This document shows positions 491 to 16,600 of a stretch of 64,000 nucleotides of DNA, piece by piece. The DNA comes from an uncultured Clostridia bacterium (GTDB lineage: Bacteria > Bacillota > Clostridia > Lachnospirales > Lachnospiraceae), in NCBI GenBank assembly GCA_947643415.1, contig CANRWA010000003.1, positions 1 through 64,000 of the forward strand, read 5' to 3'. The notes below the pieces were generated by a model. The model saw only the letters and a list, made by a program, of their open reading frames with translations, did not search any database and was not told where the DNA came from. The stretch's first letter is position 1. Each line of letters starts with the position of its first letter. The position numbers and the translations under genes were made by a program.

Positions 491-988
491 ATGAACAACA
501 AAACAATAGATGTTAATTGTCTTTCTTTCGTAAGAGCAAAGAAAGAGAATATTGGTATAATGCTTGAAATAATTCATAGGTGTGTATTGGAAATCAATGC
601 TGTGGATTATACACAAACTCAGGTGGAACATTTAGTTAAAGGTTTTTCCGAAGACTGGTTGGAAGACCTTATAAACACAAGGCATTATTATGAGGTCTGG
701 TATCAAGGAATGCTCATCGCTTGTGGAGGTGTTAGTCGGGATTATAGTCAGGAAAGGCAAAGTTATTTAACTGCTGTCTTTGTTAATCCTGATTTCAATA
801 AGAAAGGGATCGGAAGAAAATTAGTGGAATTTCTTGAAACAGACGAATGGTGTCTGGATAGTAAATTGATTGAAGTTCCATCTTCAAAAAGTTCCCATAA
901 ATTCTATTACAAATGTGGCTACCATTATCAAGATGAAACACCTGTTTTTAGGAGTGACGGGACAACGATAATGTATAAAGAAAAGTAA
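491..988 (+). CDS. GNAT family N-acetyltransferase
   Basis: The start is placed at the ATG at 491 because GGAGAAAAATA lies directly upstream; the longer frame from 407 overlaps the previous gene and lacks a ribosome site. The 165-residue product carries the GNAT core: AVFVNPDFNKKGIGRKLVEF (acetyl-CoA loop with K-K-G-I-G) and the closing SHKFYYKCGYH. The substrate is unknown. It follows another GNAT gene closely, consistent with a small co-transcribed pair. The two GNATs are not close copies of each other. Confidence 0.85.
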   Translation: MNNKTIDVNCLSFVRAKKENIGIMLEIIHRCVLEINAVDYTQTQVEHLVKGFSEDWLEDLINTRHYYEVWYQGMLIACGGVSRDYSQERQSYLTAVFVNPDFNKKGIGRKLVEFLETDEWCLDSKLIEVPSSKSSHKFYYKCGYHYQDETPVFRSDGTTIMYKEK

Positions 989-1052
989 TATTTAATTTGA
1001 TAGAAAACTGAAGTAAGCAAAAAAATCAAGAGTTTAATGGGAGGCTGAGGCA

Positions 1053-1376
1053 TTGCAGGAACAGAGGTTTACAGAAAAAGACTGGAAATTATTTAGGAGA
1101 AAGATTGCTGATTGGCAGGAATCTTATATGAACAGGCTTAATAGAGAATACATAGCCATATTAAGTGAAGATGCTAGTCCATCAGACAAGTTTTGGAAGT
1201 TGGATAAAAGAATCAAGGAAGACAAAAAGAATGCAGGGGTTCAGTTGCGTATGAGCAGGACTAATCTTATTTATAATATTATTTCACTGCTCAATGAGGG
1301 CGCAATTAGTTTTGGAGATTTAGAAGATTTTAGTGACGGATTAAAGGAGACCGTAGGTGCCTTTCTTGATAGGTAG
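1053..1376 (+). CDS. small charged hypothetical protein, TTG start
   Basis: This is a 107-residue protein rich in Lys, Glu and Asp (RFTEKDWKLFRRKIADWQESYMNRL at the N-terminus), predicted mostly helical and cytosolic with no membrane segment. The start is a TTG at 1053, supported by a strong GGGAGGCTGAGG at 1039-1050. I do not recognise a named domain. Similar short helical proteins occur as single genes in Clostridia, but I cannot assign a role. The neighbours are acetyl- and methyltransferases, which gives no functional hint. Confidence 0.7.
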   Translation: MQEQRFTEKDWKLFRRKIADWQESYMNRLNREYIAILSEDASPSDKFWKLDKRIKEDKKNAGVQLRMSRTNLIYNIISLLNEGAISFGDLEDFSDGLKETVGAFLDR

Positions 1377-1445
1377 TTTGGAGTAAATGAGTTTTTGGAT
1401 TGGAATCCATTATGGTAAAATTTTTATATTTGGAGGGAATTGTTA

Positions 1446-2123
1446 ATGGCTTTTAAATTAGACAGCGTTGTGCCTTGGGGCAGGAATCTGGAAGAATACA
1501 AATTGATGTTTGGCTTAGACGACAGTGATATATCAAAGAAAATTGCAGGCTTTGGGGATGGCCCTGCCTGCTTTAATTGTGAGATGACAAATGCGGGTGG
1601 TCATGTTGTATCCTTTGATCCTATCTATCAGTTTTCCAAAGAGGAAATTGAAAAGCGTATCGAAGAAGTCCGGATAACAGTCATGCAGCAAATGAAAGAA
1701 AATATGGACAATTATGTTTGGGCGCATATAAAGGGTTTGGACGAGCTGGAGCATATCCGCATGTCGGCTATGAAGAAATTTTTGTCTGATTACAACCAGG
1801 GTAAGAAGGAGGGGAGATATGTTTATCATGAGCTGCCAGACCGATTGCCATATGAATCAGAAAGTTTTGATATTGGCTTGAGTTCTCATTTTCTGTTGAT
1901 GTATACATCTTTGGGGTATGATTTTCATATTCAATCCATAACAGAAATGTTGAGAGTATGCAAGGAGGTCAGAATATTTCCGATTGTCGATTTGGATGCG
2001 AATAAGACAGATTTAATCAAAGATGTGATAGATTATTTTCAGAAGGACTATGACGCTACGATAGTTACAACGGAGTATGAGTTCCAAAAGGGAGACAATA
2101 AATTGTTGATTATTAGAAAATAA
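1446..2123 (+). CDS. SAM-dependent methyltransferase-like protein
   Basis: The start is the ATG at 1446, 8 bases after GGAGGG at 1432-1437; an in-frame TTG at 1440 is too close to that site. The 225-residue product has a strand-helix layout and the segment LPYESESFDIGLSSHFLLMY, which matches motif IV and the surrounding strand of class I methyltransferases that handle small molecules. The following helix pair, ITEMLRVCKEVRIFPI, also fits. The classic glycine-rich motif I (D-x-G-x-G) is not obvious near FGDGPACFN, so SAM binding is probable but not proven. It precedes another methyltransferase gene. Confidence 0.7.
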   Translation: MAFKLDSVVPWGRNLEEYKLMFGLDDSDISKKIAGFGDGPACFNCEMTNAGGHVVSFDPIYQFSKEEIEKRIEEVRITVMQQMKENMDNYVWAHIKGLDELEHIRMSAMKKFLSDYNQGKKEGRYVYHELPDRLPYESESFDIGLSSHFLLMYTSLGYDFHIQSITEMLRVCKEVRIFPIVDLDANKTDLIKDVIDYFQKDYDATIVTTEYEFQKGDNKLLIIRK

Positions 2124-2148
2124 AAATGAGTTTTTGGAGTGTAGGTAT

Positions 2149-2892
2149 ATGGAATGGAATTCAACATTATATGATAACAAACATGATTTTGTAGCGGAAT
2201 ATGGAAAGGGATTATTAGAATTTGTTCCTCGGAATCCAAAACAGTCAATATTGGATTTGGGGTGTGGAACAGGGAAATTGACTGCTCAATTAGCCGAATT
2301 GTGCAATGAAATTGTAGGTGTTGATGCTTCACAGAACATGGTGGATAAAGCGAAAGAAGAATTTAACAATATGGAATTTAAAGTATGCGATGCACTTGCT
2401 CTGCCTTTTGAAAAGGAATTTGATGTGGTTTTTTCCAATGCCGTATTTCACTGGATTAGTGATCATGATGCTTTGCTCAAAAGCATACATAGGGCTTTGA
2501 AACCTCAGGGGGTATTGGTGTGTGAGTTTGGTGCAAGTGGAAATATCGCAACGATTGAAAATGCTTTTGCAAAGGCTTGTAACAGTCTAGGATATGGCTA
2601 TGAAGCTAAATTCAATTTCCCTGCGGCAGAGAATTTTGGTAAATTGCTAAAGAAGAATGGATTTGTTATTGACAGGATTTATGAATATGACCGACCAACT
2701 GTATTAAAGGATGGAGAACAGGGGTTGGAGAATTGGATGAAACAGTTCTTTGTCTCTGAATTTGAAGTGATGCCGGAATATATACAAGCTATGGTTTTTG
2801 AGAAAGTGGAAGGATTGACGAGAGATACTTTATGGAATGGGGCAGAATGGGTTGCGGATTATCGAAGATTAAGAGCAATCGCACATATATAG
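2149..2892 (+). CDS. class I SAM-dependent methyltransferase (trans-aconitate methyltransferase-like)
   Basis: The start is the ATG at 2149 (MEWNSTLYD), preceded by TTGGAG; upstream in-frame codons have no better site. Motif I is plain, ILDLGCGTGK at about residues 34-43. It is followed by VGVDASQNM (acidic ribose contact), then CDALALPF and FSNAVFHWISDHD, the arrangement seen in trans-aconitate 2-methyltransferase and related small-molecule methyltransferases. The substrate is not determinable. A same-length relative, about four fifths identical by eye, forms the C-terminal half of the protein at 26087-27337. The homology continues past the stop codon for about nine bases (agttgtttt), so the two are segmental relatives. 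Confidence 0.85.
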   Translation: MEWNSTLYDNKHDFVAEYGKGLLEFVPRNPKQSILDLGCGTGKLTAQLAELCNEIVGVDASQNMVDKAKEEFNNMEFKVCDALALPFEKEFDVVFSNAVFHWISDHDALLKSIHRALKPQGVLVCEFGASGNIATIENAFAKACNSLGYGYEAKFNFPAAENFGKLLKKNGFVIDRIYEYDRPTVLKDGEQGLENWMKQFFVSEFEVMPEYIQAMVFEKVEGLTRDTLWNGAEWVADYRRLRAIAHI

Positions 2893-2945
2893 TTGTTTTC
2901 GATTTTATTTCTGATGAAAAAGGTGTGTACAGGAGGAATGACAGA

Positions 2946-3764
2946 ATGGGCAGAATTGTTGTTTTAGTTGGCAGTATGCGGAAGGGTGGAAATACAGATT
3001 TACTTGCACAGGCGTTTGTAGAGGGAGCGAACAAAAATAATACAGTGGAGATAGTCTCTGTTGCTGATTACAAGGTAAATCCCTGCATTGGCTGTAATTC
3101 GTGTTTTACAAGGGAAGGAAACCAATGTTTTCAGAAAGACGATATGGCAGAAATTTATAAAAAGTTGAAGGTTGCGGATATGGTTGTAATTGCCTCCCCG
3201 GTTTATTTTTATGGAATCAGTGCAGAATTAAAGGCGATTATTGACCGATTACACACGCCTATGAGAAATGAATTTCGGGTGAAAAAGCTGGCATTGATGT
3301 TGGTGGGAGCAGCAACACTACCAGAATTATTTGACGCAATTAAATTGCAATATCAGCTTGTGCTTAATTTTTTTCATTTAGAGGATGCAGGCATGGTTCT
3401 TGTAAAAGGGGTTAAGGATATTGGAGATATTAAGAGAACAAAAGCATTGGAGGAGGCATATAATCTGGGAAATTCCATTAATTGCAAAATGCCTTGTTCT
3501 GTTAAGCAGGCAAAGGAGATAAATTCGGAACTGTTAAAGCATTTAGATAAATTACACACTACAGAGTTAGGTGTTGAACGGATAAAAAGGAATCTGTCTT
3601 TGGATACAGAGGATGTTGTTGTATGGTGTAAAGATAAAATTGGTTCAGCTCATGCCATTATTACAAGAAGAGGAAAAAACTGGTATATAACTGTAGATGA
3701 TATTGTTATTACAGTAAATGCACATAGTTATACTATCATAACGGCACATAGGGAAAAGAAATAA
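2946..3764 (+). CDS. flavodoxin/NADPH-dependent FMN reductase-like protein fused to a DUF3781 domain
   Basis: The start is the ATG at 2946, eight bases after AGGAGGA at 2931-2937. Residues 1-180 form a flavodoxin-like oxidoreductase: VVLVGSMRKGGNTDLLAQAF (phosphate loop for FMN), a C-x-x-C-x-x-C segment CIGCNSCFTREGNQC, and IASPVYFYGISAELKAIID (isoalloxazine loop). Residues from about 190 (LDKLHTTELGVERIKRNL to YTIITAHREKK) match the DUF3781 family, which is usually a free-standing small domain of unknown role. The join is a continuous frame with no stop, so it is a real two-domain protein or a fusion. It is probably a cytosolic iron-sulfur/flavin reductase; the DUF3781 contribution is unknown. 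Confidence 0.8.
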   Translation: MGRIVVLVGSMRKGGNTDLLAQAFVEGANKNNTVEIVSVADYKVNPCIGCNSCFTREGNQCFQKDDMAEIYKKLKVADMVVIASPVYFYGISAELKAIIDRLHTPMRNEFRVKKLALMLVGAATLPELFDAIKLQYQLVLNFFHLEDAGMVLVKGVKDIGDIKRTKALEEAYNLGNSINCKMPCSVKQAKEINSELLKHLDKLHTTELGVERIKRNLSLDTEDVVVWCKDKIGSAHAIITRRGKNWYITVDDIVITVNAHSYTIITAHREKK

Positions 3765-3943
3765 GATAGAGGAAGATGTAGCTAAACTGAAAAAGTCAGG
3801 GGTAAAACAGATATATAGACATATTAAAATAAAGATGTTTTTTGTTTTGGACGAAAAAAGTCAATTTTTGCTTTGTTACATAGAAAATATATGATAAAAT
3901 GAGCAAGAACCAATAAAAGAGAAAGCATTGGAGGAATGGATTT

Positions 3944-4594
3944 ATGGCAAACACATACAAAGTTATAGATGAAAAGACGTGGGAAAGAGCTATGCACTGT
4001 ATGATTTTTAGAAACAGTGTTGAGCCTGCATTTTGTGTGACTTTTGAAGTAGATATCACGAATTTCCTGCAGCAGATTAGGAAACAAAATTTTTCTTTTA
4101 CACTTGCGTTTGTCTATGCGGTATGCAAATGTGCAAATGAGATTGAAGCATTCCGGTATCGTTTTTTAGATGGCAATATTGTTTTGTTTGATAAAATTGA
4201 TACCGCTTTTACATACTTGAACAAAGATACAGAATTATTTAAAGTGGTTAATGTTCCGATGCAGGATACAATGAAAGAATATGTGGAATTGGCAACACAA
4301 ATCGCAGAAGAGCAAAAAGAATATTTTACTGGACCGCTTGGCAATGATGTATTTCAATGTTCGCCTATGCCATGGGTAACATATACCCATATTTCCCATA
4401 CCAATTCCGGCAAGAAGGATAATGCAACACCATTGTTTGACTGGGGGAAATATTACGTGAAGGACGGACGAGTTATGATGCCGGTGTCGGTTCAGGCACA
4501 TCATTCTTTTGTAGATGGCATACATATCGGGAAATTTGTTGATAAATTGCAGAAATATATGGATGATATTTTGATAGTTGGGAATAATTTGTAA
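3944..4594 (+). CDS. chloramphenicol acetyltransferase-like protein (CatA family)
   Basis: The product has 216 residues, the length of classical type A chloramphenicol acetyltransferases, with start ATG 3944 after TTGGAGGAATGG. It keeps the family order: an N-terminal W-E-R-A segment, FSFTLAFVYAVCKCANEIEAFRYR, DTAFTYLNKDTELF, PWVTYTHISHT, and the catalytic signature HHSFVDG at residues 186-192 (second His as general base, Asp structural). Known members move acetyl from acetyl-CoA to the 3-hydroxyl of chloramphenicol, but many chromosomal CatA-like proteins in Firmicutes do not confer resistance, so the drug specificity is an inference. A 104-base piece of a close relative survives at 24005-24108. 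Confidence 0.85.
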   Translation: MANTYKVIDEKTWERAMHCMIFRNSVEPAFCVTFEVDITNFLQQIRKQNFSFTLAFVYAVCKCANEIEAFRYRFLDGNIVLFDKIDTAFTYLNKDTELFKVVNVPMQDTMKEYVELATQIAEEQKEYFTGPLGNDVFQCSPMPWVTYTHISHTNSGKKDNATPLFDWGKYYVKDGRVMMPVSVQAHHSFVDGIHIGKFVDKLQKYMDDILIVGNNL

Positions 4595-4638
4595 TAATTA
4601 GTACCCGAATAAAATGATTTAAGAAAGGAATAAATTAT

Positions 4639-5907
4639 ATGTTCAATTTAGAAGAAGGATATGATTTGAATTATAATAAAATATGTGTCGATTCAAAGTG
4701 GAATGAAAGTGAAAAAAAAGAGTTGTTAATGCATACGATTCATGCATATCCAGCCAAATTTCCATCATTTATTGCATCAAAAGCATTTGAATATGCCATA
4801 AGCGAAGGAGTTAAGATAAACAAGGTTGCAGATATTTTTTGCGGCTGTGGAACGGTGGCACTTGAGGCTAAAATACATAATTATGATTTTTGGGGATGTG
4901 ATATAAATCCAGTGGCGACTTTGATTGCAAAAACAAAAAGCTGTGACTATAATCTTGATGAATTGGAGAAATATTTTAAGGATATTAAAAAGATTGTTGG
5001 TACAATGAAATTTGGACAACAAGAATATTACAATGCAAATAAAAGATTGCAATATTGGTTTACTCCTAATAATTATACAGAATTATTAAAGCTGCATTCT
5101 GCCATTGGGGTGGCAGTCGACAATGAAAAGTATAGAGAGGCCTTTGAATGTATTTTTTCTGCAATTTTGAAAGCATGTTCCAAATGGCTGACAAAATCAA
5201 TTAAGCCTCAGGTTGATCCGAATAAGAAAGAAATAAATGTTGAGCAATGCTTTGACAGGCAGTATAGAAAATTTTTGAAATCAATAAAAGAATTAGAACA
5301 TAGTAGTAGTACTATTGAAGTAAGATGTCAAAATTTTTTGACGTGCCAAAAGTTGCCAGAAGTTGATTTGTTAATAACCAGTCCACCATATGTTACTTCT
5401 TATGAGTATGCGGATTTGCACCAATTATCCTCGCTATGGTTAGGATATACAGATGACTATAGGAAACTGCGAAAGGGTTCAATAGGGAGTATATATTATA
5501 GTGATGAAATAGACATAGAATTATCAGAACTGAATGATACAGGAAAAGAAATTATTGCTTCATTGAAAAAGAGTCCTTGCCCAAATTCGAGAATTAAGTC
5601 TATTGCTAGATATTATCTTGATATGCAGAATGCTATTAAAAGAAGTTATTCAATGCTGAATAATGGGGGGATGATTTTTTTGGTTATAGGTGATACAGAG
5701 TATAAAGGAGTTAAAATATTAAATTCCAGACATCTGGTAGAAGCACTAAAAACGGAGGGATTTAAGGGAATAAAAATAGGGAAACGTACTATTTCTAGGG
5801 GATTGTGTGTGCCGTTTAGGGATAGTGAAGGTAAATTTTCAAAAGACAAGGATAAAAAGAAGATATATCATGAGGAATTTATTATTAGTGGGAGGTGTTG
5901 GAAGTGA
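4639..5907 (+). CDS. DNA methyltransferase (N4-cytosine/N6-adenine type, SPPY motif), modification subunit
   Basis: The start is ATG 4639 after AGAAAGGAATAAATT. Motif I is at residues 65-72, DIFCGCGT, followed by WGCDINPVAT (motif II); the catalytic motif IV is TSPPY at about 248-252. The order I then IV, with SPPY, is typical of amino-methyltransferases acting on cytosine N4 or adenine N6. The N-terminal HAYPAKFP segment is common in such enzymes. The gene ends in GTGA: its TGA overlaps the GTG start of the next gene, so the two are translationally coupled. Base composition is visibly more AT-rich than in neighbouring blocks, suggesting acquisition by transfer. It is the likely protective methylase of a two-gene restriction-modification system; the recognition sequence is unknown. 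Confidence 0.88.
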   Translation: MFNLEEGYDLNYNKICVDSKWNESEKKELLMHTIHAYPAKFPSFIASKAFEYAISEGVKINKVADIFCGCGTVALEAKIHNYDFWGCDINPVATLIAKTKSCDYNLDELEKYFKDIKKIVGTMKFGQQEYYNANKRLQYWFTPNNYTELLKLHSAIGVAVDNEKYREAFECIFSAILKACSKWLTKSIKPQVDPNKKEINVEQCFDRQYRKFLKSIKELEHSSSTIEVRCQNFLTCQKLPEVDLLITSPPYVTSYEYADLHQLSSLWLGYTDDYRKLRKGSIGSIYYSDEIDIELSELNDTGKEIIASLKKSPCPNSRIKSIARYYLDMQNAIKRSYSMLNNGGMIFLVIGDTEYKGVKILNSRHLVEALKTEGFKGIKIGKRTISRGLCVPFRDSEGKFSKDKDKKKIYHEEFIISGRCWK

Positions 5908-8366
5908 ATCTAGAATTAATGGGGAAAAAGGTTGATGATATTGAGGTAACGATTAGTAGTAGAATAATTGAACTTTTTTCTGCGGGTTTATATTCAAGTC
6001 CCAATAAAGCATTTGAGGAATTGATATGTAATTCTTATGATGCTTTTGCTAGTAAGGTGGCGGTATACAGTCCTGATGATCCAACGGTTTCTGATTCTTA
6101 TATTTGGATTTGTGATAATGGAGAGGGCTTAGATGCAAATGAATTAAAGCAATTATGGAAAATAGGTGATTCGTTAAAGCGAAAAAATAGTGACAGGGAT
6201 AAAAGGCGTTTGCAGATTGGACAATTTGGAATAGGGAAATTGTCAACATATATTCTAGCAAGAAAACTAACATACATATCAAAAAAAGATAATAGATATA
6301 TGTTAGCAACGATGGATTATAATTTGATAAATGATGATAACAATGGAATAAAAATTGATGAAAGGGAAGTTAGTGAGAAAGAAGCAAGACAGATAGCAGA
6401 TGAATTCATTAAATCTCGGTTATTGAATTTTGATCTGTTTGGCGCTGATGCATCAGAAACATGGACAATAAGTTTAATGACAGAGCTAAAACCGAAGGCA
6501 TCGGAAATTCAACAGGGAAGATTGAAATGGCTTTTAAGTACAGCATTACCATTAAATCCTGGGTTTGATTTAAAGTTTAACGGAGTTAATATTGAGTCTT
6601 CAAAAATCAAAAAACCAATAATTCAGAAATGGATTGTAGGAAAAGATGATGAAACTTTAGAGAAAATCAAGGGCTCATCTTATCGGGTGGAAGTAGACGA
6701 ATACGAGGGAGAAAAGTATTATGTCGATTTTGAAAATCTAAGGGGAGTTAATGGTGAATTTGTTTTATATGAAGATTCGTTGGTTGAGGGAAAGTCTTCA
6801 AAGTATGGAAGGAGTCATGGTATATTTTTAAATATTAGAGGTCGATTGATAAATTTAGATGATCCACTTTTAGGAATGGATGCCTTTTCGCATGGTGTTT
6901 TTAACCGGACTAGGATTATTATAAATGCAGATGAATTAGATAGTAATTTAACATCTACGAGAGAGGCTGTTAAGGATTCTATTCCATTAAAACAATTAAA
7001 GGAATATATAAAGAAAAAATTTAATAATGAAGTAAGAAAATATTATTTTGAACAAGAAAGGAAGGCGACACAAGAAAAGTCCATTTCATACAGATTATCC
7101 CAAACGGCATATACAACATCTAAGAGACCTATATATAATTTTATACATAAGTATTATGATGAAAAAATAATAAATCCTTTATTGATAGAAAAACCAGAAG
7201 ATAACCAAAGGGAGGAACTTTTAAAGTTATATGAGAGAAATTTAGAAACGGGGGAGCAAATTATTGAAAAGATTAAGTATGATTATAAAGCGATTGAAGA
7301 ACCAATTGCAAAATTAGACTTGGCATCGCAAACACTTTGGATAAATGAGTCGCATCCGTATGTGGCAAATTATAGAGATGGAAATAATAATCTAATTCCA
7401 TTAGAAAGCATGATTGTAACGGAGGTTTTGACGGAGGCTCATTTATATGAACTTTCCTTGGATGAAAGTGTGGTAAATGAGATAATTAGAAGAAGAGATA
7501 GTACTCTTCGACAGTTAGCTTTATCAGATAAGATGGGGATTCCAGCTGCGGCTATGTTTTTAAAAGATTCCTTAAGTAATGCTGATGGTTTAGAAGATGC
7601 TGTAGCACGAGTATTAACGGTTTTTGGATTTGAAGTAACAACTATTGGTGGCAAGGGTGAACCAGATGGAAAGGCTGAAGCTTGTTTAGGGTTTAGTAAT
7701 GAAGGAAAAAAGAGAAGTTATTCATTAACTTATGATGCGAAAAGTACATCAAAAAATAAAATTGCAGCAGTTACTGCACATTTATCTGGATTACGTAGAC
7801 ATAGGGAAAAATACAATGCCGATTTTAGCTTGGAAGTTGCAATTGATTATCAAGGTTCAGAGGATGAGATGAGTGCGATTTCTGTCGAGGCGAGAAATGA
7901 AAAAGTCACAATGATGACAGCCAAAGATTTGATAAAATTGCTTTTATTGATTACTCCTAAGCAAATTGGATTAGATAAGTTGCGTGAATTATTTGAAACT
8001 TGTTACACTCCTATGGAGGTTCATCAGTGGGTAGAGGGGATTGAAAAGGTGCAAGTAGAAAAACCGCCATATTTTGAATTGATAGATATAATATATGATT
8101 TGCAAAGAAATGACACCGAAGCCCCTGAAGTAAATCTTGTGAGATATCAATTAAAAAACAAAATGGGAATAAATTATTCTATACAACAAGTTCAGGAATG
8201 GCTGCTTTTGCTTTCAAATTTAGTTCCAGGTAGCGTGACACTTGATGGAAATCTTGTAGGTGTACAAGCTAGTGCACAGATTATAAAAGAACGGGTGCAT
8301 AAAGCTATAAGTGATATGCCGATTGGGATGCAACCTTTATATGATGAAATTTTTAAGTTAGGTTAG
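5904..8366 (+). CDS. GHKL (MORC/MutL-like) ATPase fused to a PD-(D/E)XK nuclease domain
   Basis: The start is the GTG at 5904, 7 bases after GGAGGT and overlapping the methyltransferase stop by four bases. The N-terminal third holds the Bergerat ATP-binding motifs in order: EELICNSYDAF (motif I, catalytic Glu and Mg-binding Asn), CDNGEGLD (motif II) and IGQFGIGKLS (motif III). An S5-like segment with RTRIIINADELDSNLTSTR follows. A long linker leads to a nuclease-like core at about residues 570-640: VFGFEVTTIGGKGEPDGKAE, then LTYDAKSTSKNK, giving the P-D...D-A-K signature of Mrr-type PD-(D/E)XK enzymes. The C-terminal ~170 residues are helical and may bind DNA. The literature on prokaryotic MORC/paraMORC ATPases places such proteins in restriction-modification operons, usually with separate helicase and nuclease genes; here ATPase and nuclease are one polypeptide and no helicase is present. 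The function is inferred. Confidence 0.85.
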   Translation: MNLELMGKKVDDIEVTISSRIIELFSAGLYSSPNKAFEELICNSYDAFASKVAVYSPDDPTVSDSYIWICDNGEGLDANELKQLWKIGDSLKRKNSDRDKRRLQIGQFGIGKLSTYILARKLTYISKKDNRYMLATMDYNLINDDNNGIKIDEREVSEKEARQIADEFIKSRLLNFDLFGADASETWTISLMTELKPKASEIQQGRLKWLLSTALPLNPGFDLKFNGVNIESSKIKKPIIQKWIVGKDDETLEKIKGSSYRVEVDEYEGEKYYVDFENLRGVNGEFVLYEDSLVEGKSSKYGRSHGIFLNIRGRLINLDDPLLGMDAFSHGVFNRTRIIINADELDSNLTSTREAVKDSIPLKQLKEYIKKKFNNEVRKYYFEQERKATQEKSISYRLSQTAYTTSKRPIYNFIHKYYDEKIINPLLIEKPEDNQREELLKLYERNLETGEQIIEKIKYDYKAIEEPIAKLDLASQTLWINESHPYVANYRDGNNNLIPLESMIVTEVLTEAHLYELSLDESVVNEIIRRRDSTLRQLALSDKMGIPAAAMFLKDSLSNADGLEDAVARVLTVFGFEVTTIGGKGEPDGKAEACLGFSNEGKKRSYSLTYDAKSTSKNKIAAVTAHLSGLRRHREKYNADFSLEVAIDYQGSEDEMSAISVEARNEKVTMMTAKDLIKLLLLITPKQIGLDKLRELFETCYTPMEVHQWVEGIEKVQVEKPPYFELIDIIYDLQRNDTEAPEVNLVRYQLKNKMGINYSIQQVQEWLLLLSNLVPGSVTLDGNLVGVQASAQIIKERVHKAISDMPIGMQPLYDEIFKLG

Positions 8367-8526
8367 TGGAATATGTTGACAAATTTATCAGTTCAAGAGC
8401 TAATATTGCTGATTGTGTTTGTTGAAGTGTTTTGATATAGTCATCAGGGGCATTTAATGCTTTTAGATATGAAATGATTTTATCTATATCTGCAAAAAGT
8501 TGGGAGTATGATATTTCATCATGCAT
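8353..8526 (-). CDS. small hypothetical ORF (57 aa), convergent with the ATPase-nuclease gene
   Basis: Reading MHDEISYSQLFADIDKI, this frame has a good upstream site (GAGGTGATC, about six bases before the ATG on the minus strand) and overlaps the end of the ATPase-nuclease gene by 14 bases tail to tail. The product is acidic and helical with no recognised domain. It could be a genuine small protein associated with the restriction locus, or chance. The ribosome site is the main reason to keep it. Confidence 0.35.
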   Translation of the reverse strand: MHDEISYSQLFADIDKIISYLKALNAPDDYIKTLQQTQSAILALELINLSTYSTNLT

Positions 8527-8605
8527 AAAGATCACCTCAAAAAGTATTTTGAGTTAGTATATTCAGTTTAGAAACATTTATGCAGGAAAATTTTAATAAA
8601 AAGCA

Positions 8606-8634
8606 TTGCATATACTATTCGATTTGGGTATCAT
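8606..8634 (+). promoter_or_regulatory. candidate sigma-70 promoter of the toxin-antitoxin pair
   Basis: TTGCAT (8606-8611), a 17-base spacer and TATCAT (8629-8634) lie about 65 bases upstream of the antitoxin start at 8702. There is no clear operator palindrome, although such modules usually autoregulate. Confidence 0.4.
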
Positions 8635-8701
8635 ATAAGTGTAAAAAGTAAGTTTTGTATTGATAGGAATATTGAAAACGTAAACAGAAAGGACTGATTC
8701 T

Positions 8702-8875
8702 ATGGCGGTAGCATTAAAAGAAGATTACCAGAAAGCTTTGGACGAACAGAAAAAGGAAGTCCGAGAACTTGTGATGGCTGGGTTAGAACAGATAAAAGAA
8801 GGAAAGACAAAAGACTTTAATACTGTATGTGACAGATTGGAGAAGAAATACAGAGATGAGGCAATATCAAATTAG
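8702..8875 (+). CDS. short antitoxin-like protein of a type II toxin-antitoxin module
   Basis: This is a 57-residue highly charged helical protein (MAVALKEDYQKALDEQKKEV) starting at ATG 8702 after AAAGGACTGATTCT. It overlaps the start of a RelE/ParE-fold toxin gene by 20 bases, the standard antitoxin-first arrangement. No DNA-binding motif such as ribbon-helix-helix is obvious, so it may act only by wrapping the toxin. The family assignment rests mostly on position and size; the middle segment GLEQIKEGKTKDFNTVCDRL resembles small antitoxins that pair with ParE-like toxins. Confidence 0.65.
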   Translation: MAVALKEDYQKALDEQKKEVRELVMAGLEQIKEGKTKDFNTVCDRLEKKYRDEAISN

Positions 8876-9188
8876 GATTACGGAGTTGGCAGAGGAAGAT
8901 TTGGAAAATGCTGGAGATTACATTGCCTATGAATTGAAAAATCCGTCTGTAGCTGAAAATACAGTAAGTGGGATTCGTGCAAAGATAAATTCTCTGGTAA
9001 ACTTTCCGGAGAGGAATGAATTGGACGAAGATGGGTTACTGGCTGGGTTGGGTGTCCGAAAAGATTATTATCGCAATTATAAGATTTATTATGTGATAGA
9101 GGAGAACACCATTTACATAGTTAGAATTTTGCGTATGTTGGTTGATAGTAAAGCGTGGTTGAATCGCACATTTGGAGTGTACAGTTAA
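8856..9188 (+). CDS. RelE/ParE family toxin
   Basis: The ATG at 8856 lies inside the end of the antitoxin frame, giving a 110-residue product, the usual length for this fold. It shows the family layout: N-terminal strand YQIRITELAEEDLENAGDYIAYEL, the segment VNFPERNELDEDGLLAGLGVRK, then YYRNYKIYYVIEENTIYIVRIL, with a conserved Arg and the terminal V-R-I-L-x-x-x strand seen in ParE/RelE toxins. Members either cleave mRNA on the ribosome (RelE) or poison gyrase (ParE); the sequence here, with Y-R-x-Y-x-I-Y-Y, cannot decide between the two. It sits directly after the restriction-modification genes. Confidence 0.8.
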   Translation: MRQYQIRITELAEEDLENAGDYIAYELKNPSVAENTVSGIRAKINSLVNFPERNELDEDGLLAGLGVRKDYYRNYKIYYVIEENTIYIVRILRMLVDSKAWLNRTFGVYS

Positions 9189-9341
9189 TTGATACCATGT
9201 GATACCCATATGATACCTGTTCACTGTGAAACTCAAAATAATATGGAAAATATGCGAAATAAACGGTATAAAATAGTAAGAAATACGCCTAAGGATGAAC
9301 AAATAAGTTAATTTTTAGGGAGTTCGAATAGCGGACATTTG

Positions 9342-9383
9342 GACTGGAAAGTGCGAAAAATCAGTACTTTTCAGTCTTTTTTT
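9342..9383 (+). terminator. rho-independent terminator
   Basis: GACTGGAAAGT and ACTTTTCAGTC form an 11-base stem with one mismatch, followed directly by a run of seven T. It lies about 155 bases beyond the toxin stop. Between the toxin and this site are three GATACC repeats (9191, 9201, 9212) of no known role. Confidence 0.7.
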
Positions 9384-9676
9384 CCTTTCGTGAGATTGTT
9401 TTGAGATTCATATTTGGACACTTTCTATATATTCCACGAAGCTGAATTTTAAAACTAAACCCGGTATGCAAAAGTAAATTCTACAACCCCCTTAAAAGTT
9501 TTGAATTTTTTAAAGTTTTTTGTGCACCATCATTTTTTATAATAAAATAAGATAAACTTCATAATCCAGGCATACAGACAGACCTCTAGAAACTGCCTTT
9601 TTTAAGACTAATTCCTATCGGTCTGTGGTACCGATGTAGAAGTTGTCCGGATATGGTGTCCATAAATTTGACTGTT

Positions 9677-10993
9677 TTAATGTTTCAGCAGCTTCGGTGT
9701 CAGCATTACATCATCTGATGCAATATACCGGAGCTGCAGTGCCATAATGGATTTTTCATCATATATTCTGCATACCTCAAGATAAGGCGTACTGCTATTT
9801 AATGCTTTTCTGGGTGCATTATTGATGTGGTCCACACATTTATGGATATCTCATTGCGTAAGTGTATCAAAAACGGCTCCTTTTGGAAGGATCATGCGGA
9901 GCATGGTATGTACGTTTTCAATGCCTCCTTTTAGATTGCTCCGCATGGGGTCACAGTAATAGATACTTGTTCTGGCAGTTCCATCCGATGCCATTTCCAA
10001 AGCATACGGATTTCCAAATTCAGCCCCTCTGTCCGTGAGAATCACAAGAAAGAGGCAGAAAAAATCAAAAGATCTGCCAAGCTTTGTCTGAAGGCAGTCG
10101 AAAACTGCCCTGACAGTTCCGGGGGTACAGCGGAAAAGCAGATGTGCAGGAAACAATTCTGTTTTCGGGAAATAAAATGTCAGGATGCACTTATTGGATC
10201 CCCTTGCTGATTTAACGGTATCCATTTCCACAAAATCTAGTTTATTCGAATGGCTTGTCCTGAAATCCGTATATGTCCGGCTAACGAACACGCTTCTGTC
10301 CTAGATCTGGGTGTTATGTACCTTATGGGACTTGAACTTTACTTTCCTTTTGAGGTCTATATTTCTTGCCAGCAGCACTCCCTTGTCGATGTAGTTGTAT
10401 AAGGTGCTGACAGAAATTCCTAGTTCAGGATGGTTTGTAAGAATCATATAGGGAGACTGTCCCTGAAGAATTAACGGCTTCACAACCGCATCGATGGCAT
10501 GAAGCTGCTTCCTTTGTAAGGGAAATATCTTCGCGGGAAGCAGAGAGGTGTTCCGTGTACATTCTGTGGGCAGCCCTAGCACTGTAATCATATTTGGTTG
10601 AAATGGGGGATTTATTCCTTGGCTTATCACAGCTTTCGCATACGAAAGGCGTCCTGCTGATATGCGGACAACGTTCCGGTTAAAAGTCATCACAGGCTTT
10701 ATTGCAGATACGGCACGAGCGACAGCTGATGTCACATAAAAGATTTTTTTGAAGGCATTTGTTTTGCGGCAGCGAAACTTATGGATGCAGAAGTTATGGG
10801 GATTGTTAAAGCTGCCTTTCTTCCAAGTCTTTGCAATCCTGTTACGAAAGCCCTCATCAGAAATGGTAGATGGATCCCTGCACAGGTATCTAGAAACAGC
10901 CCGGAAAGATTTATTTTCATCCAGTGGCTGTTCAATGTAGAGCCTGGCCTCCAAAGTAAGGTGTTTGTGGTTACCTGGTATTAATTTAGACAT
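9677..10993 (-). pseudogene. IS30-family transposase, decayed
   Basis: Read from ATG 10993 (MSKLIPGNHKHLTLEARLYIE) to the stop at 9677, this matches a complete IS30-type transposase of about 430 residues: N-terminal helix-turn-helix, the SPYMILTNHPELGISVSTLYNYID segment, then the DDE core with FVEMDTV, ILTDRGAEFGNP and YYCDPMRSNLKGGIEN. An in-frame TAG at 10301-10303 and another stop near 9850 interrupt it, and the C-terminus MALQLRYIASDDVMLTPK continues after the second stop. Part of the zinc-finger region looks scrambled. Similar short motifs (tatgcaa-agtaaat-ctac) flank it near 9465 and 11065 in the same orientation, so the exact element ends are uncertain. No intact transposase is made. 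Confidence 0.85.
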
Positions 10994-11238
10994 GGTGTGT
11001 ATCTCCTGTTTGTCATCACCACATTCGGACAACTAAAACACTATACGATCATTATCAAAGATATGCAACAGTAAATCCTACTTATTCAGAAGTAAATCCT
11101 ATATTAAATAATCAGAATAGGATCTTGAAAAATAATTCTGATATTTTGCAGAATGCCTATTTATTGATTGCGATTTACCATCAAAAATGTTACAGTATTT
11201 ATATCAAGATATGTGATAATCAGATGGAGGCGATGGAA

Positions 11239-11523
11239 ATGGGACAGTCTACAATTAGTGTATATTTGGATGATTCCATTAAAAAACAGTTTGACAGCTT
11301 GTGTGCAGAGTATGGTATGTCTGTATCCACAGCGTTTAATATTTATGCACGGACAGTTGTAAGGCAGAGAAAAATTCCTTTTGAGATTACGGCGGAAAAT
11401 GATCCCTTTTATAGTGAATCAAATGCGAGAATCCTAAAGGAATCCATAGAGCAGATGGAACAGCACCCGGAGCGAAATGTTGTAAAAGCACTGGAAGAAC
11501 TGGAGGAACTTGCGGATGGCTGA
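11239..11523 (+). CDS. RelB/DinJ family antitoxin
   Basis: The start is ATG 11239, eight bases after GGAGG; the in-frame ATG at 11233 is too close to the site. The 94-residue product MGQSTISVYLDDSIKKQFD begins with the ribbon-helix-helix DNA-binding segment typical of RelB/DinJ antitoxins (AEYGMSVSTAFNIYARTVV), followed by an acidic helical tail that would cover the toxin. Its stop overlaps the start of a broken YoeB gene. Since the toxin is inactivated, the antitoxin is an orphan that may still repress its promoter or neutralise related toxins. Confidence 0.85.
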   Translation: MGQSTISVYLDDSIKKQFDSLCAEYGMSVSTAFNIYARTVVRQRKIPFEITAENDPFYSESNARILKESIEQMEQHPERNVVKALEELEELADG

Positions 11524-11794
11524 TATTTTATTCTCAGAACGGGCATGGGAAGAATTCCAATATTGGATGGGGCAGGATAAAAAAACTGTTAAGAGTATTA
11601 CGGCACTATTAAAGGATATAAGCAGAAGTTCTTTTGAGGGGATTGGAAAGCTGGAGCCGCTGATTGGAGAAAAATGATGCCAGCATCATCGGAAGTGGAG
11701 CAGACTCATTAACGGAACAGAACGACTGGTGTATTCCGTGGATGACCGTGGTGTAAATGTATATTAGTGCAAGGGGCACTACGATGATAAGTAG
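11516..11794 (+). pseudogene. YoeB/Txe-like toxin, inactivated
   Basis: ATG 11516 overlaps the antitoxin stop. The frame gives MADILFSERAWEEFQYWMGQ and GIGKLEPL, the standard YoeB beginning, but stops at TGA 11675. Reading on in shifted frames gives DASIIG and then KWSRLINGTERLVYSVDD and CKGHYDDK, the catalytic C-terminus of the family. So a +1 and a compensating -1 change flank the DASIIG stretch, and a further TAG at 11764 replaces a serine codon in the usual YSCKGHY motif. The toxin is therefore dead by at least two lesions. Confidence 0.8.
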
Positions 11795-11938
11795 TTTTTA
11801 ATGGTAGGAGAGAATAGAAACAGGTAAGCCATTGTGGGTAATGAAAATCCATGATGACTAATTTTTTGAAAGAATAGGGTAGTCTGGCTGGAGTAAAAAT
11901 TTTCCGGCAGGCTGCTTTTTTATTTTTTGGAGGGCAAT

Positions 11939-12146
11939 ATGGCAGAAATCAAATTTATTTTTGCTTTTGAACAAGACAGAATCATACCAGATGGATTTCA
12001 CGAGGGATGGCAGACAGGGGGAATGGTGAGTTTTACAAGGATTGCGTTCAGCCTCTGGAACGGATATGTAGAACGGGGGGTGGAAGGTATGTCAGCACCC
12101 TATGAAATATTTGATTGTGTAACTACGCCCCGTATTTTTATGAAGC
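11939..12146 (+). pseudogene. small unknown gene, truncated and joined to IS256 sequence
   Basis: The start is ATG 11939 after GGAGGG. The frame reads MAEIKFIFAFEQDRIIPDGF and SFTRIAFSLWNGYVERG, which is conserved-looking but not a family I can name. A frameshift near 12117 is likely, because the neighbouring frame continues with a better-looking NYAPYFYEAIRLRYP. From about 12147 the frame runs into IS256 transposase residues (YVILDISQDGYKEVL), so the open frame ending at 12301 is a chimera, not one protein. Confidence 0.5.
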
Positions 12147-12939: not shown

Positions 12940-13512
12940 TTATTTGTCAATGGTACTTTTTAAAACAGCAACGGAAGTATGGTAAATCAATTTTGAAATT
13001 TCCATTGGGGATTCTTTCATTTCGCTATTTATCCAGTTTTGGACAACACTGATGCATCCGGAAATCAGATATTGAAAACGATAATCCGACGTGTCATCCT
13101 CCTTGATGTTCAATGATTTTGCCGTGTTCCGCAGAAATTCTATGGTTTCCTGTATCATATCGGATGGGAAACTATCATCCACACTGTTATTTAATAGCAG
13201 TTTATAGATCTCACAATTGTTCTGCATATGGCAGAGCAGGCGGTATAGTGGTTCAATTTGGAAAGTCTCTTCACCAACTGCAATTTCCTGCATGCATTGT
13301 TTACTTCTTTGTAATGTTTCCTGTTCCAATTCAGTCAGGACATCTCTTACATTATTATAATATTTGTAAAATGTGGAACGGTTTAATTCAGCAGCCTCGC
13401 AAAGTTCCGTAACGGAAATCTGGTAAATCGTTTTTTTCTGGAGCAGGGCAATCAGCCCATCTTTAACCAGCATTTTTGTCAGGCGTGTTCGTTGGTTTTC
13501 TTTTTTATTCAT
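12940..13512 (-). CDS. TetR family transcriptional regulator
   Basis: The start is ATG 13512 (minus), after AAGGAGGAAGTAAG; 190 residues. The N-terminal helix-turn-helix is clear: ALLQKKTIYQISVTELCEAA and ELNRSTFYKYYNNVRDVL, the TetR DNA-recognition helix with T-F-Y-x-Y-Y. The C-terminal domain (IEPLYRLLCHMQNNCEIYKL onward) is of the TetR_C type found beside efflux genes in Firmicutes. It is divergent from the MMPL transporter, with a shared 187-base intergenic region that contains a palindrome between the promoter elements, so it is probably the local repressor of transporter and kinase-like gene. The ligand is unknown. Confidence 0.88.
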   Translation of the reverse strand: MNKKENQRTRLTKMLVKDGLIALLQKKTIYQISVTELCEAAELNRSTFYKYYNNVRDVLTELEQETLQRSKQCMQEIAVGEETFQIEPLYRLLCHMQNNCEIYKLLLNNSVDDSFPSDMIQETIEFLRNTAKSLNIKEDDTSDYRFQYLISGCISVVQNWINSEMKESPMEISKLIYHTSVAVLKSTIDK

Positions 13513-13620
13513 CTTACTTCCTCCTTGCCATGTCATATACAAAATTGTAGTATTCTTTATTTTCTGCAACAAAACAGAATAGAATTGTTGGTTTCAAATC
13601 GTTATATAAAAAACTGTTGA

Positions 13621-13649
13621 TTGTAAAAACAACATACTGTTGCTATAAT
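13621..13649 (+). promoter_or_regulatory. promoter of the MMPL operon with candidate TetR operator
   Basis: TTGTAA (13621-13626), 17 bases, TATAAT (13644-13649). The spacer contains CAACATACTGTTG (13630-13642), a perfect inverted repeat of 5-base arms placed between -35 and -10, which is where a repressor would block polymerase. Further CAAC/GTTG motifs occur nearby at about 13567 and 13586. Confidence 0.6.
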
Positions 13650-13699
13650 GACATTATATTTTATTCTGAAGTATTTGTCAAAAGGTAAGGAGACGGATT

Positions 13700-16600
13700 A
13701 TGAAAAAACTTGCAGACTGGATTGTGGATAAAAAAGGACTTATTTTTCTCTTTGTGGCGATACTTACTGTTGCTGCTGTGCTTGGGATTTTTAAGACCAA
13801 TATCAACTATGATATGTCAAAGTACCTGCCATCCGATTCTTCTGTTAAACAAGGAATGGAACTGATGGCAGAGGAATATGGTGATATGTCAGCGATCACA
13901 GTCATGTTTGACGATTTGTCGGAAAAGGAGCAGACAGAGCGGAAAACGGAACTGGAAAGTTTGGAACATGTGAAAAATGTAATCTATTTGCAGGATGATG
14001 AGGCATACCAGAAAAAGAATCATTCTAAATATATGATTAATGTGTCTGCGAATACATATTCGGAAGAAGCGAGAAAGGTACTGCAGAGTATCAAGGATAC
14101 CTATGGTGATTCGGCATATTTGTGCGGTGCTGTTGTTGACAATGATATGATGGTAAACACATTATTGGAAGAAATACCGGTGATTGCCGTGATTGCCGTT
14201 GTTATTATTTTTGCAATCTTGTTTTTGCTTTGTAATTCGTGGGTGGAACCGATTTTATATATGTGTTGTATTGGCATTGCAATTATACTGAATATGGGAA
14301 GTAACGTGTTTCTTCCTTCCGTGTCTTTTATGACTTTTGCGGTAGGGGCATTACTGCAAATGGGATTATCTATGGATTATTCCATTATGCTGATGAACCG
14401 CTATAATCAGGAAAAAAAGAAGCAGGCAGACTCTGTGCTATCTATGAAAAAAGCTTTGACTAATGCGTTTAGCGCTATTACCAGCAGCTCTGTGACAACG
14501 ATCGTGGGACTTTTAGTTTTGCTGTTTATGAGTTTTAAGATTGGACAGGATATGGGGATTGTGCTGGCAAAGGGGGTATTTATCAGCCTTCTCTGTATCT
14601 TTACTGTCCTGCCGGGACTGGTAGTAGTCTTTGATAAGGCAATGGCAAAGACACATAAAAAATCATTGGAATTTAATATGAAACCGCTGATGCGTTTTGC
14701 TGGGAAAATCCGTTTTGTGTCGGTACCATTGGTTATACTTGTAACAATAGCAGCGGTATTTTTAAAAAACGGCATGGAAATTATTTATGTTAAAACCTTT
14801 GACAATCCGGATCAGACGAAAATTGAGGAAGCCTTTGGGATGGATAACCAGACGGTATTATTGTATGACAGGAAAGAAAATCCGGAACATATAGCGGAGT
14901 ATATTGACTGGCTGGAGGAGAGGGAAGATGTCAATTCGGTACAGGATTATTCTAATACGATTGGGAAGTCCTATACATATAAGGAATTGACAAAAGACAT
15001 GGATATATCCTTGGAACAGGCAAAAATGTTATACCAGATGTACAGGGATAACCACAATTCATCAGATTATAAGAAGATTACCATGTATCAACTGATATGT
15101 TATATGGATAAGAATGTTGCAGGAAATCCGGCTTATGCGGAGTTTATGGATAAAGATCAGATCGAACAGATCCATGATGCCAGAAAAGAACTGGAAGATG
15201 GCAAAGATAAAATGAAAGATGGCAGGAAAGAGTTAAAAGATGCCAGAAAAGAACTGGAAGATGGAGAAGAAGAACTGTCTGAGGGGGAAAAAAAGATTGC
15301 AGATGGGAAAAAAGAGATTGCAAAAAATGAGAAAAAACTGAAGGACAGCGAGAGGACAATAACAAAAAATGAGAAAAAACTGGCAGATAGTGAAAAGCTT
15401 ATTATAAAAAATGAAAAGAAATTGAAAAAAAGCGAGAAAAAGCTTGCAGCAGGGGAAAAGCAGATTGTAAAGGCAGAAAAGGAAATGACAGCCAATGAGA
15501 AAAAATTGGCGGGGGGAGAGAAAAAATTAAGAGAAGCAGAAGAACAGATGCAGCTTGCCGGAATGACGGAGGAGATGATTGCAGCGCAGCTTGGCAGCCA
15601 GAAAACAGAACTCCAAACCGCAAGGCAGCAGTTGGAGGCAGGGAAGAAGCAGCTGCAGAAGGAAAAGACAAAATTGGTAAATGCCAGAAAACAGTTGGAG
15701 GGAGGGAAGAAAAAGCTGGCAAAAGGCAGAAAACAGTTAGAGGCAGGGAAGAAAAAGCTGGCGAAAGGCAGGAAACAACTGGAGAATGGCAAGAAAGAGC
15801 TGGGAAAGGCAAAAAAACAGTTAGAAGATGCAGAAGAAGAAATAAAAGATGGAAAAGAGGAACTGAAAGATGGTTGGAAAAAGTATAACGATGGAAAAAA
15901 AGAACTGGATGACAGCCTGAAAATTTATGAAACCCCGATGACAGCAGAGGAACTGGCAGATGAGATGGATGAAAATGTGGAAGATGTCAGGGATATGCTG
16001 AAAATACGCAGGATGTCTATGCTGGATGTGGAACAGGATACGATGACGCTGGAAGAGTTCCTTACGTTTATCACAGATGAAATTTTGCCCAATAAAACAT
16101 ATTCTGCAGCTATTGATGAGGATATGCGTTCGGAAATTGAAGATGGGGAAACGCAGATTCGGGAAAACCGTGAACTAATGCTCGGCAAAAAATATAACCG
16201 CATGATTATATCCACAAAGTATCCTTCTGAGGGGAATGCCACTTTTGCCTGTATGGGAGAACTTAAGAAAAAGGCAAAAGGATTTGACCAGAGGGCATAT
16301 TTTGTTGGAGATTCTGCTATGGGGTATGAGATGGATGAGGGATTTACGGATGAGCTGAATTTTGTGACGCTTCTGACGATAATTGCAATTCTGCTTGTTG
16401 TATTGGTTACATTTCGCTCTTTTGTCAGTTCTGCTGCATTAGTGGCGATTATTCAGGCGGCAGTATTTATTACAACGGCTATTGTGACCCTGCAAGGTTA
16501 CAGCACCAATTATGTTGCCCTGATTTTGGTGCAGTGTATTTTGATGGGGGCAACGATTGACTATGGGATTCTTTTATTTGATAATTATAGGGAAATGCGG

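Follow-up and report, generated by a model that had tools for sequence, protein, structure and literature searches.

A methyltransferase-linked GHKL ATPase with a FokI-type nuclease domain, a predicted mobile restriction-modification system of Lachnospiraceae

Results

The window analysed here, a 64,000-nucleotide stretch (positions 1 to 64,000 of contig CANRWA010000003.1, GenBank assembly GCA_947643415.1) from an uncultured Clostridia bacterium of the family Lachnospiraceae, carries on its plus strand two coupled genes, one for a DNA methyltransferase (4639..5907, 422 aa) and one for an 820-residue protein (5904..8366) predicted to be a restriction enzyme. In the methyltransferase, motif I (DIFCGCGT) precedes the SPPY motif, and the larger protein combines a GHKL ATPase, a FokI-type nuclease and a winged helix. 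Both open reading frames (ORFs) lie where the initial annotation had placed them and share the GTGA overlap (5904-5907) it described. The mechanical ORF of the 820-residue protein opens at GTG 5895 in the window; GTG 5904 is the likely start, since it is there that the mechanical ORF opens in each of the five close relatives (L001-L004 and L007). These five, the window protein and the more distant L008, L010, L011 and L024 make up the ten-member family set used throughout. Both window genes are intact open frames, and the ratio of nonsynonymous to synonymous substitution (dN/dS), was 0.05-0.12 over five pairs of the nuclease gene and 0.09-0.19 over five of the methyltransferase gene, rough values with most dS near saturation. 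By this comparison both large genes look to be under constraint, and the open frames together with dN/dS rule out a decayed locus.

The GHKL ATPase recognised in the initial annotation was borne out: HATPase_c_3 matches residues 31-155 (5994..6368, plus strand, as for all domains below) with a Pfam E-value of 3.5e-19, and E39, N43, D71, G73, G106, G109, G111 and K112 are invariant in all ten aligned members. An S5/transducer-like region follows, estimated at about residues 185-350 (6456..6953) from a profile alignment of residues 13-406 to BbrUII-type enzymes. The further description of the ATPase as MORC-like proved loose. The MORC signature, as defined in PMC2292703, is a GhXhhpXXRhl motif within the S5 domain; a pattern search found it in none of the ten members, which excludes MORC proper, and a looser G-x7-RhI-like string is present. 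Inspection by eye of the ORF lists, in which the neighbours were not domain-scanned, revealed no helicase beside the pair. According to the same survey, an SFII helicase is present in about 70% of MORC neighbourhoods, and a minority have no helicase genes (PMC2292703). We also noticed, at L015 (793-2889, minus strand), a GHKL protein whose end appears TIR-like by eye (FISHSREDK), recalling the paraMORC4 description in PMC2292703.

The middle region of the protein (about residues 406-550; 7119..7553) is little conserved, with 3 of 145 positions invariant. It leads into the FokI-type PD-(D/E)XK nuclease domain (about residues 555-700; 7566..8003), with E564, D588, D611 and K613, and then into a C-terminal winged-helix domain (about residues 720-803; 8061..8312). 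The PD-(D/E)XK core proposed earlier was upheld, since E564 and K613 are invariant in 10/10 members, D588 and D611 are each replaced by E in a single member, and the model shows a PD-(D/E)XK domain here; the putative catalytic D...(D/E)xK pattern is thus kept in every member as D/E588, D/E611 and K613. In the model, the nuclease domain is of FokI-type fold with the winged helix after it. When the 1000 PDB chains ranked highest by Foldseek were re-aligned with VIA, this fold matched the cleavage domains of FokI, N.BspD6I and the R.BspD6I small subunit at 11-18% sequence identity, although other families may also match. The cleavage domain of FokI is joined to its recognition domains, whereas that of the window protein is joined to a GHKL ATPase. 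Searched by sequence with the nuclease profile, the PDB returned only HindIII (E 0.24), and PADLOC gave no match to the nuclease pieces.

A homologous module was observed in proteins of 486-779 residues from the same bacterial family (L032-L040), which contain multiple helix-turn-helix (HTH) motifs and an Mrr_cat-like part. Both their nuclease and the winged helix after it share homology with those of the window protein (E 2.7e-22), and they carry winged helices at the N-terminus where the window protein has GHKL. A methyltransferase was found near none of these nine genes in stretches of 8.7-14 kb, using BLAST with five methyltransferases and a motif search, by which some may be missed.

The window methyltransferase matches Pfam MethyltransfD12 (4.6e-9) and N6_N4_Mtase (1.8e-8) and the PADLOC model MTase_II (4.3e-35), and its SPPY motif we take to denote the N4-cytosine type. 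A methyltransferase directly adjoins the ATPase-nuclease gene at nine of the ten family loci. In seven members it is an upstream homolog of the window enzyme, with 63-74% identity in the five close relatives, of which L002 and L003 are not independent because they are 94% alike around the pair. At L010 and L011 an unlike methyltransferase lies downstream of the ATPase-nuclease instead, that of L011 being 25% identical to the window's. Downstream of the family member at L008, a second restriction-modification-like cluster (8856-11939) encodes a C5-methyltransferase, a FokI_cleav_dom protein (E 6.4e-17) and a Vsr protein. Homologs of the window methyltransferase also occur at L022 (40%; cluster at 5953-10738) and L023 (47%; cluster at 764-5620), where they are followed by a histidine kinase-like protein with two ATPase domains and a third protein without Pfam matches. 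This arrangement resembles the HEF_HK/Response_reg_2 systems as outlined in PMC8011034, by layout only, because PF19191 and PF19192 were unmatched in the two-ATPase and third proteins at E-values up to 0.01.

The initial annotation described a two-gene system. The pair itself stands, but the conserved unit also includes a small convergent gene of 57 codons on the minus strand (8353..8526), preceded by the Shine-Dalgarno sequence GAGGTGAT. DNA homology between close loci continues about 200 bases beyond the nuclease gene, where a minus-strand ORF of 53-57 codons is present, with GAGG before its ATG, in all six close loci. Blastn against the unit of the nearest relative (L052) likewise gave 77% identity over 4626..8596. 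In 14 of 15 pairs the second codon position varies least; the remaining pair, L002/L003, has five differences altogether. The dN/dS of 0.06-0.74 over 13 computable pairs implies weaker constraint than on the two large genes. The profile of the small ORF had no match in the 15 other loci scanned, including L008, L010, L011 and L024. Among 299 sampled genomes of the bacterial family the window's own copy was the sole clear match, beside two weak ones inside open frames that are 786 and 795 codons long; G341, which carries the L052 copy, is missing from this result and was presumably not drawn. Pfam gave no match to the window's small ORF, and single matches in other members to PHP_C (0.004) and TIP120 (0.069) were taken as chance. 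We infer that the small gene serves the unit in an accessory or regulatory capacity.

The pair is AT-rich, as stated in the initial annotation (GC content 0.329 versus 0.419 for the remainder of the first 16 kb). Across the six close loci its GC content is 0.319-0.329, with flanks at 0.363-0.481, and homology between loci is mostly limited to the unit, the exceptions being L002 versus L003 and pieces near uvrB-like sequence. Judged from these comparisons, the pair is transferred as a unit. It is also rare: matches came from 2 of 397 genomes of the bacterial family, from 1 of the 398 phylum-sample genomes, which is the window's own, and from 2 of the 391 class-sample genomes, one of which (G902) matches over ATPase residues 13-136 only. 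A known phage gene was excluded, as nothing matched among 50,697 phage records. Relatives do lie on three IMG/VR contigs (L008, L010 and L011), and further IMG/VR scans added just one match, L025, to the ATPase part only. Plasmid-borne close copies were likewise rejected, 0 of 72,556 records covering 80% of the query; the archaeal L024, the most divergent member at 20% identity, is itself plasmid-borne.

Several features of the surroundings were recorded by eye. A partial copy of the 5' end of an apparent uvrB gene occurs close to the unit in L002 (~3996-4241), L003 (~5220-5467) and L004 (6045-6286 and 11515-11756, where it is 83% identical over 242 bases to the full-length copy of the same locus); recombinase-like fragments accompany it, a picture that would fit an element integrating at uvrB. 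Downstream of the unit in the window, a possible RelE/ParE-type pair (8703-9188) and broken transposase-like ORFs (9851-11032) suggest a mobile region, and a gene (3944-4594; HHSFVDG) whose product resembles a chloramphenicol acetyltransferase-type enzyme lies 45 bases upstream of the methyltransferase. Just downstream of the unit at L052, an ORF of 650 codons whose beginning is SIR2-like (13202-15154; FAGAGLSV) is perhaps another defence gene. Neither Rfam nor tRNA scanning yielded a match in the window.

Discussion

The initial annotation regarded a one-chain GHKL-nuclease without a helicase as unusual; precedents for it exist in paraMORC3 and the helicase-free neighbourhoods of PMC2292703, in VcSduA (PMC12137116) and in BbrUII/HgiDII (NCBIfam NF050001). 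The last of these is a single-chain ATPase-nuclease like the window protein, and its N-terminal GHKL and S5-type half is homologous to window residues 13-406 (hhalign probability 99.1 with three proteins). The nuclease halves differ: the alignment ends at residue 406, and the nuclease profile aligned to the three BbrUII-type proteins with a probability of 0.1. With a score of 57.1 bits against the NF050001 cut-off of 550 and this non-matching C-terminus, BbrUII proper is excluded. In the three loci of this type that we fetched (two over the cut-off, one under) a methyltransferase lies just upstream, as in the window, but by motif and BLAST it is a C5-cytosine enzyme in 3/3, whereas the window partner is of D12/N6_N4 type. 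M.HgiDII is listed as producing m5C at GTCGAC (PMC5867850), and PMC4618763 names BbrUIII rather than BbrUII.

A second comparison concerns VcSduA, a GHKL Shedu of type I-D (paraMORC3), which like the window protein has an N-terminal GHKL and a C-terminal PD-(D/E)XK domain in one chain, and in which E27A or K557A each abolishes anti-phage activity (PMC12137116). For paraMORC3 a C-terminal nuclease domain of the RE fold is described (PMC2292703). The VcSduA nuclease belongs to DUF4263/SduA_C (PMC12137116), while that of the window protein has a FokI-type fold. Pfam, read up to E-values of 1, gave no SduA_C match in either the window protein or the ten members, which excludes a Shedu nuclease; a weak match (E 0.0068) was found in the nuclease half of one of the three BbrUII-type proteins. 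More broadly, the prokaryotic MORC/paraMORC restriction-modification operons surveyed in PMC2292703 link a GHKL and S5-type ATPase to a methyltransferase and a nuclease, as in the window pair, but they carry the MORC motif, which is missing from all ten members here. From these alignments we read the window protein as a chimera, in which a known restriction-ATPase half is placed on a FokI/Mrr-type cutting half. Thus a single-chain GHKL-nuclease beside a methyltransferase is already known, and the FokI-type combination and the small gene look new; neither was found in our searches of open-licence papers, a collection that lacks most subscription journals.

The view of the initial annotation that this is a transferred, methyltransferase-linked defence module, most likely a restriction-modification system, gains support from the methyltransferase adjoining at nine of ten loci and from the GC offset. 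We consider that the locus is probably a mobile Type II-like restriction-modification system, with the 820-residue protein as its predicted restriction enzyme. Several observations weigh against this assignment or the FokI-type fold. At the archaeal L024, four genes separate methyltransferase and ATPase-nuclease. Structure prediction gave a PD-(D/E)XK domain for the nuclease region, but the whole-protein AlphaFold2 model, built with six close sequences, reached a predicted local distance difference test score (pLDDT) of 37. Of seven nuclease pieces, one matched Pfam FokI_cleav_dom, below its gathering score (E 0.11), and two matched Mrr_cat (best 4.5e-4), the window's own piece being unmatched by either. 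The hhalign comparison with a FokI_cleav_dom protein had a probability of 76 with the DxK residues out of register. Finally VcSduA, the nearest tested architecture, is described in the accessible part of PMC12137116 as working without a linked methyltransferase.

The VcSduA precedent suggests an autonomous Shedu-like phage nuclease, in which GHKL would sense a phage structure such as DNA ends or replication intermediates and license the nuclease, the methyltransferase being a passenger or tempering self-damage. We regard this as unlikely, though not negligibly so. VcSduA, with the same ATPase-nuclease order, needs both active sites (PMC12137116), the kind of methyltransferase differs between loci, and the related multi-HTH nucleases had no methyltransferase nearby in 9/9 loci by our limited test; yet the methyltransferase, adjacent in nine of ten family loci, is swapped rather than lost, and SduA_C is unmatched. 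The small gene, adjoining the nuclease in 6/6 close loci, would also suit a toxin-antitoxin-like or self-guarding module, in which the small convergent protein and the methyltransferase would restrain an otherwise toxic ATPase-nuclease. This seems improbable to us: the small gene was not detected at L008, L010, L011 and L024 although the nuclease is retained there, and thus the family can do without it; moreover, antitoxins are seldom convergent. A MutL/Vsr-like repair function guided in its choice of strand or site by the methyl mark, which the GHKL-nuclease combination recalls and to which PMC2292703 lends something by raising roles outside restriction-modification for isolated paraMORC3 members, is very improbable for a pair that is rare (2/397, 1/398 and 1/391 beyond the ATPase part), AT-rich, unit-transferred and methyltransferase-linked.

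For the restriction-modification system that we favour, the following mechanism may be considered. The methyltransferase would mark host sites, as N4-methylcytosine if SPPY is a reliable guide, and DNA would be read by the winged helix at the C-terminus together with the poorly conserved middle region. The FokI-type domain would then cut, presumably in a methyl-sensitive manner. FokI-type domains must pair to make a double-strand break, as is known for FokI, and dimers of GHKL ATPases such as Hsp90, MutL and gyrase form through the N-domain in its ATP-bound state; ATP-driven pairing is therefore the most likely mechanism. ATP binding may close the N-terminal clamp so that two cleavage domains meet on unmethylated DNA, and ATP hydrolysis may reset it. 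We hypothesize, as did the initial annotation, that ATP hydrolysis gates cleavage. The full scheme, an ATP-driven GHKL clamp that pairs FokI-type domains, with cutting licensed on unmethylated DNA and a dedicated 57-residue protein as third part, is put forward tentatively.

One GHKL and S5 ATPase half is joined to unlike cutting halves, weakly Shedu-like in BbrUII-type enzymes and FokI-type here, and stands beside unlike methyltransferases. These differences argue for the ATPase as a general gate on DNA cleavage, not tied to any single enzyme. The FokI-type nuclease domain is widely used in genome engineering, and if ATP indeed closes the clamp to pair such domains, the protein would be a natural ATP-switchable version of it. 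Moreover, the conserved small gene may offer a new handle on the control of such systems.

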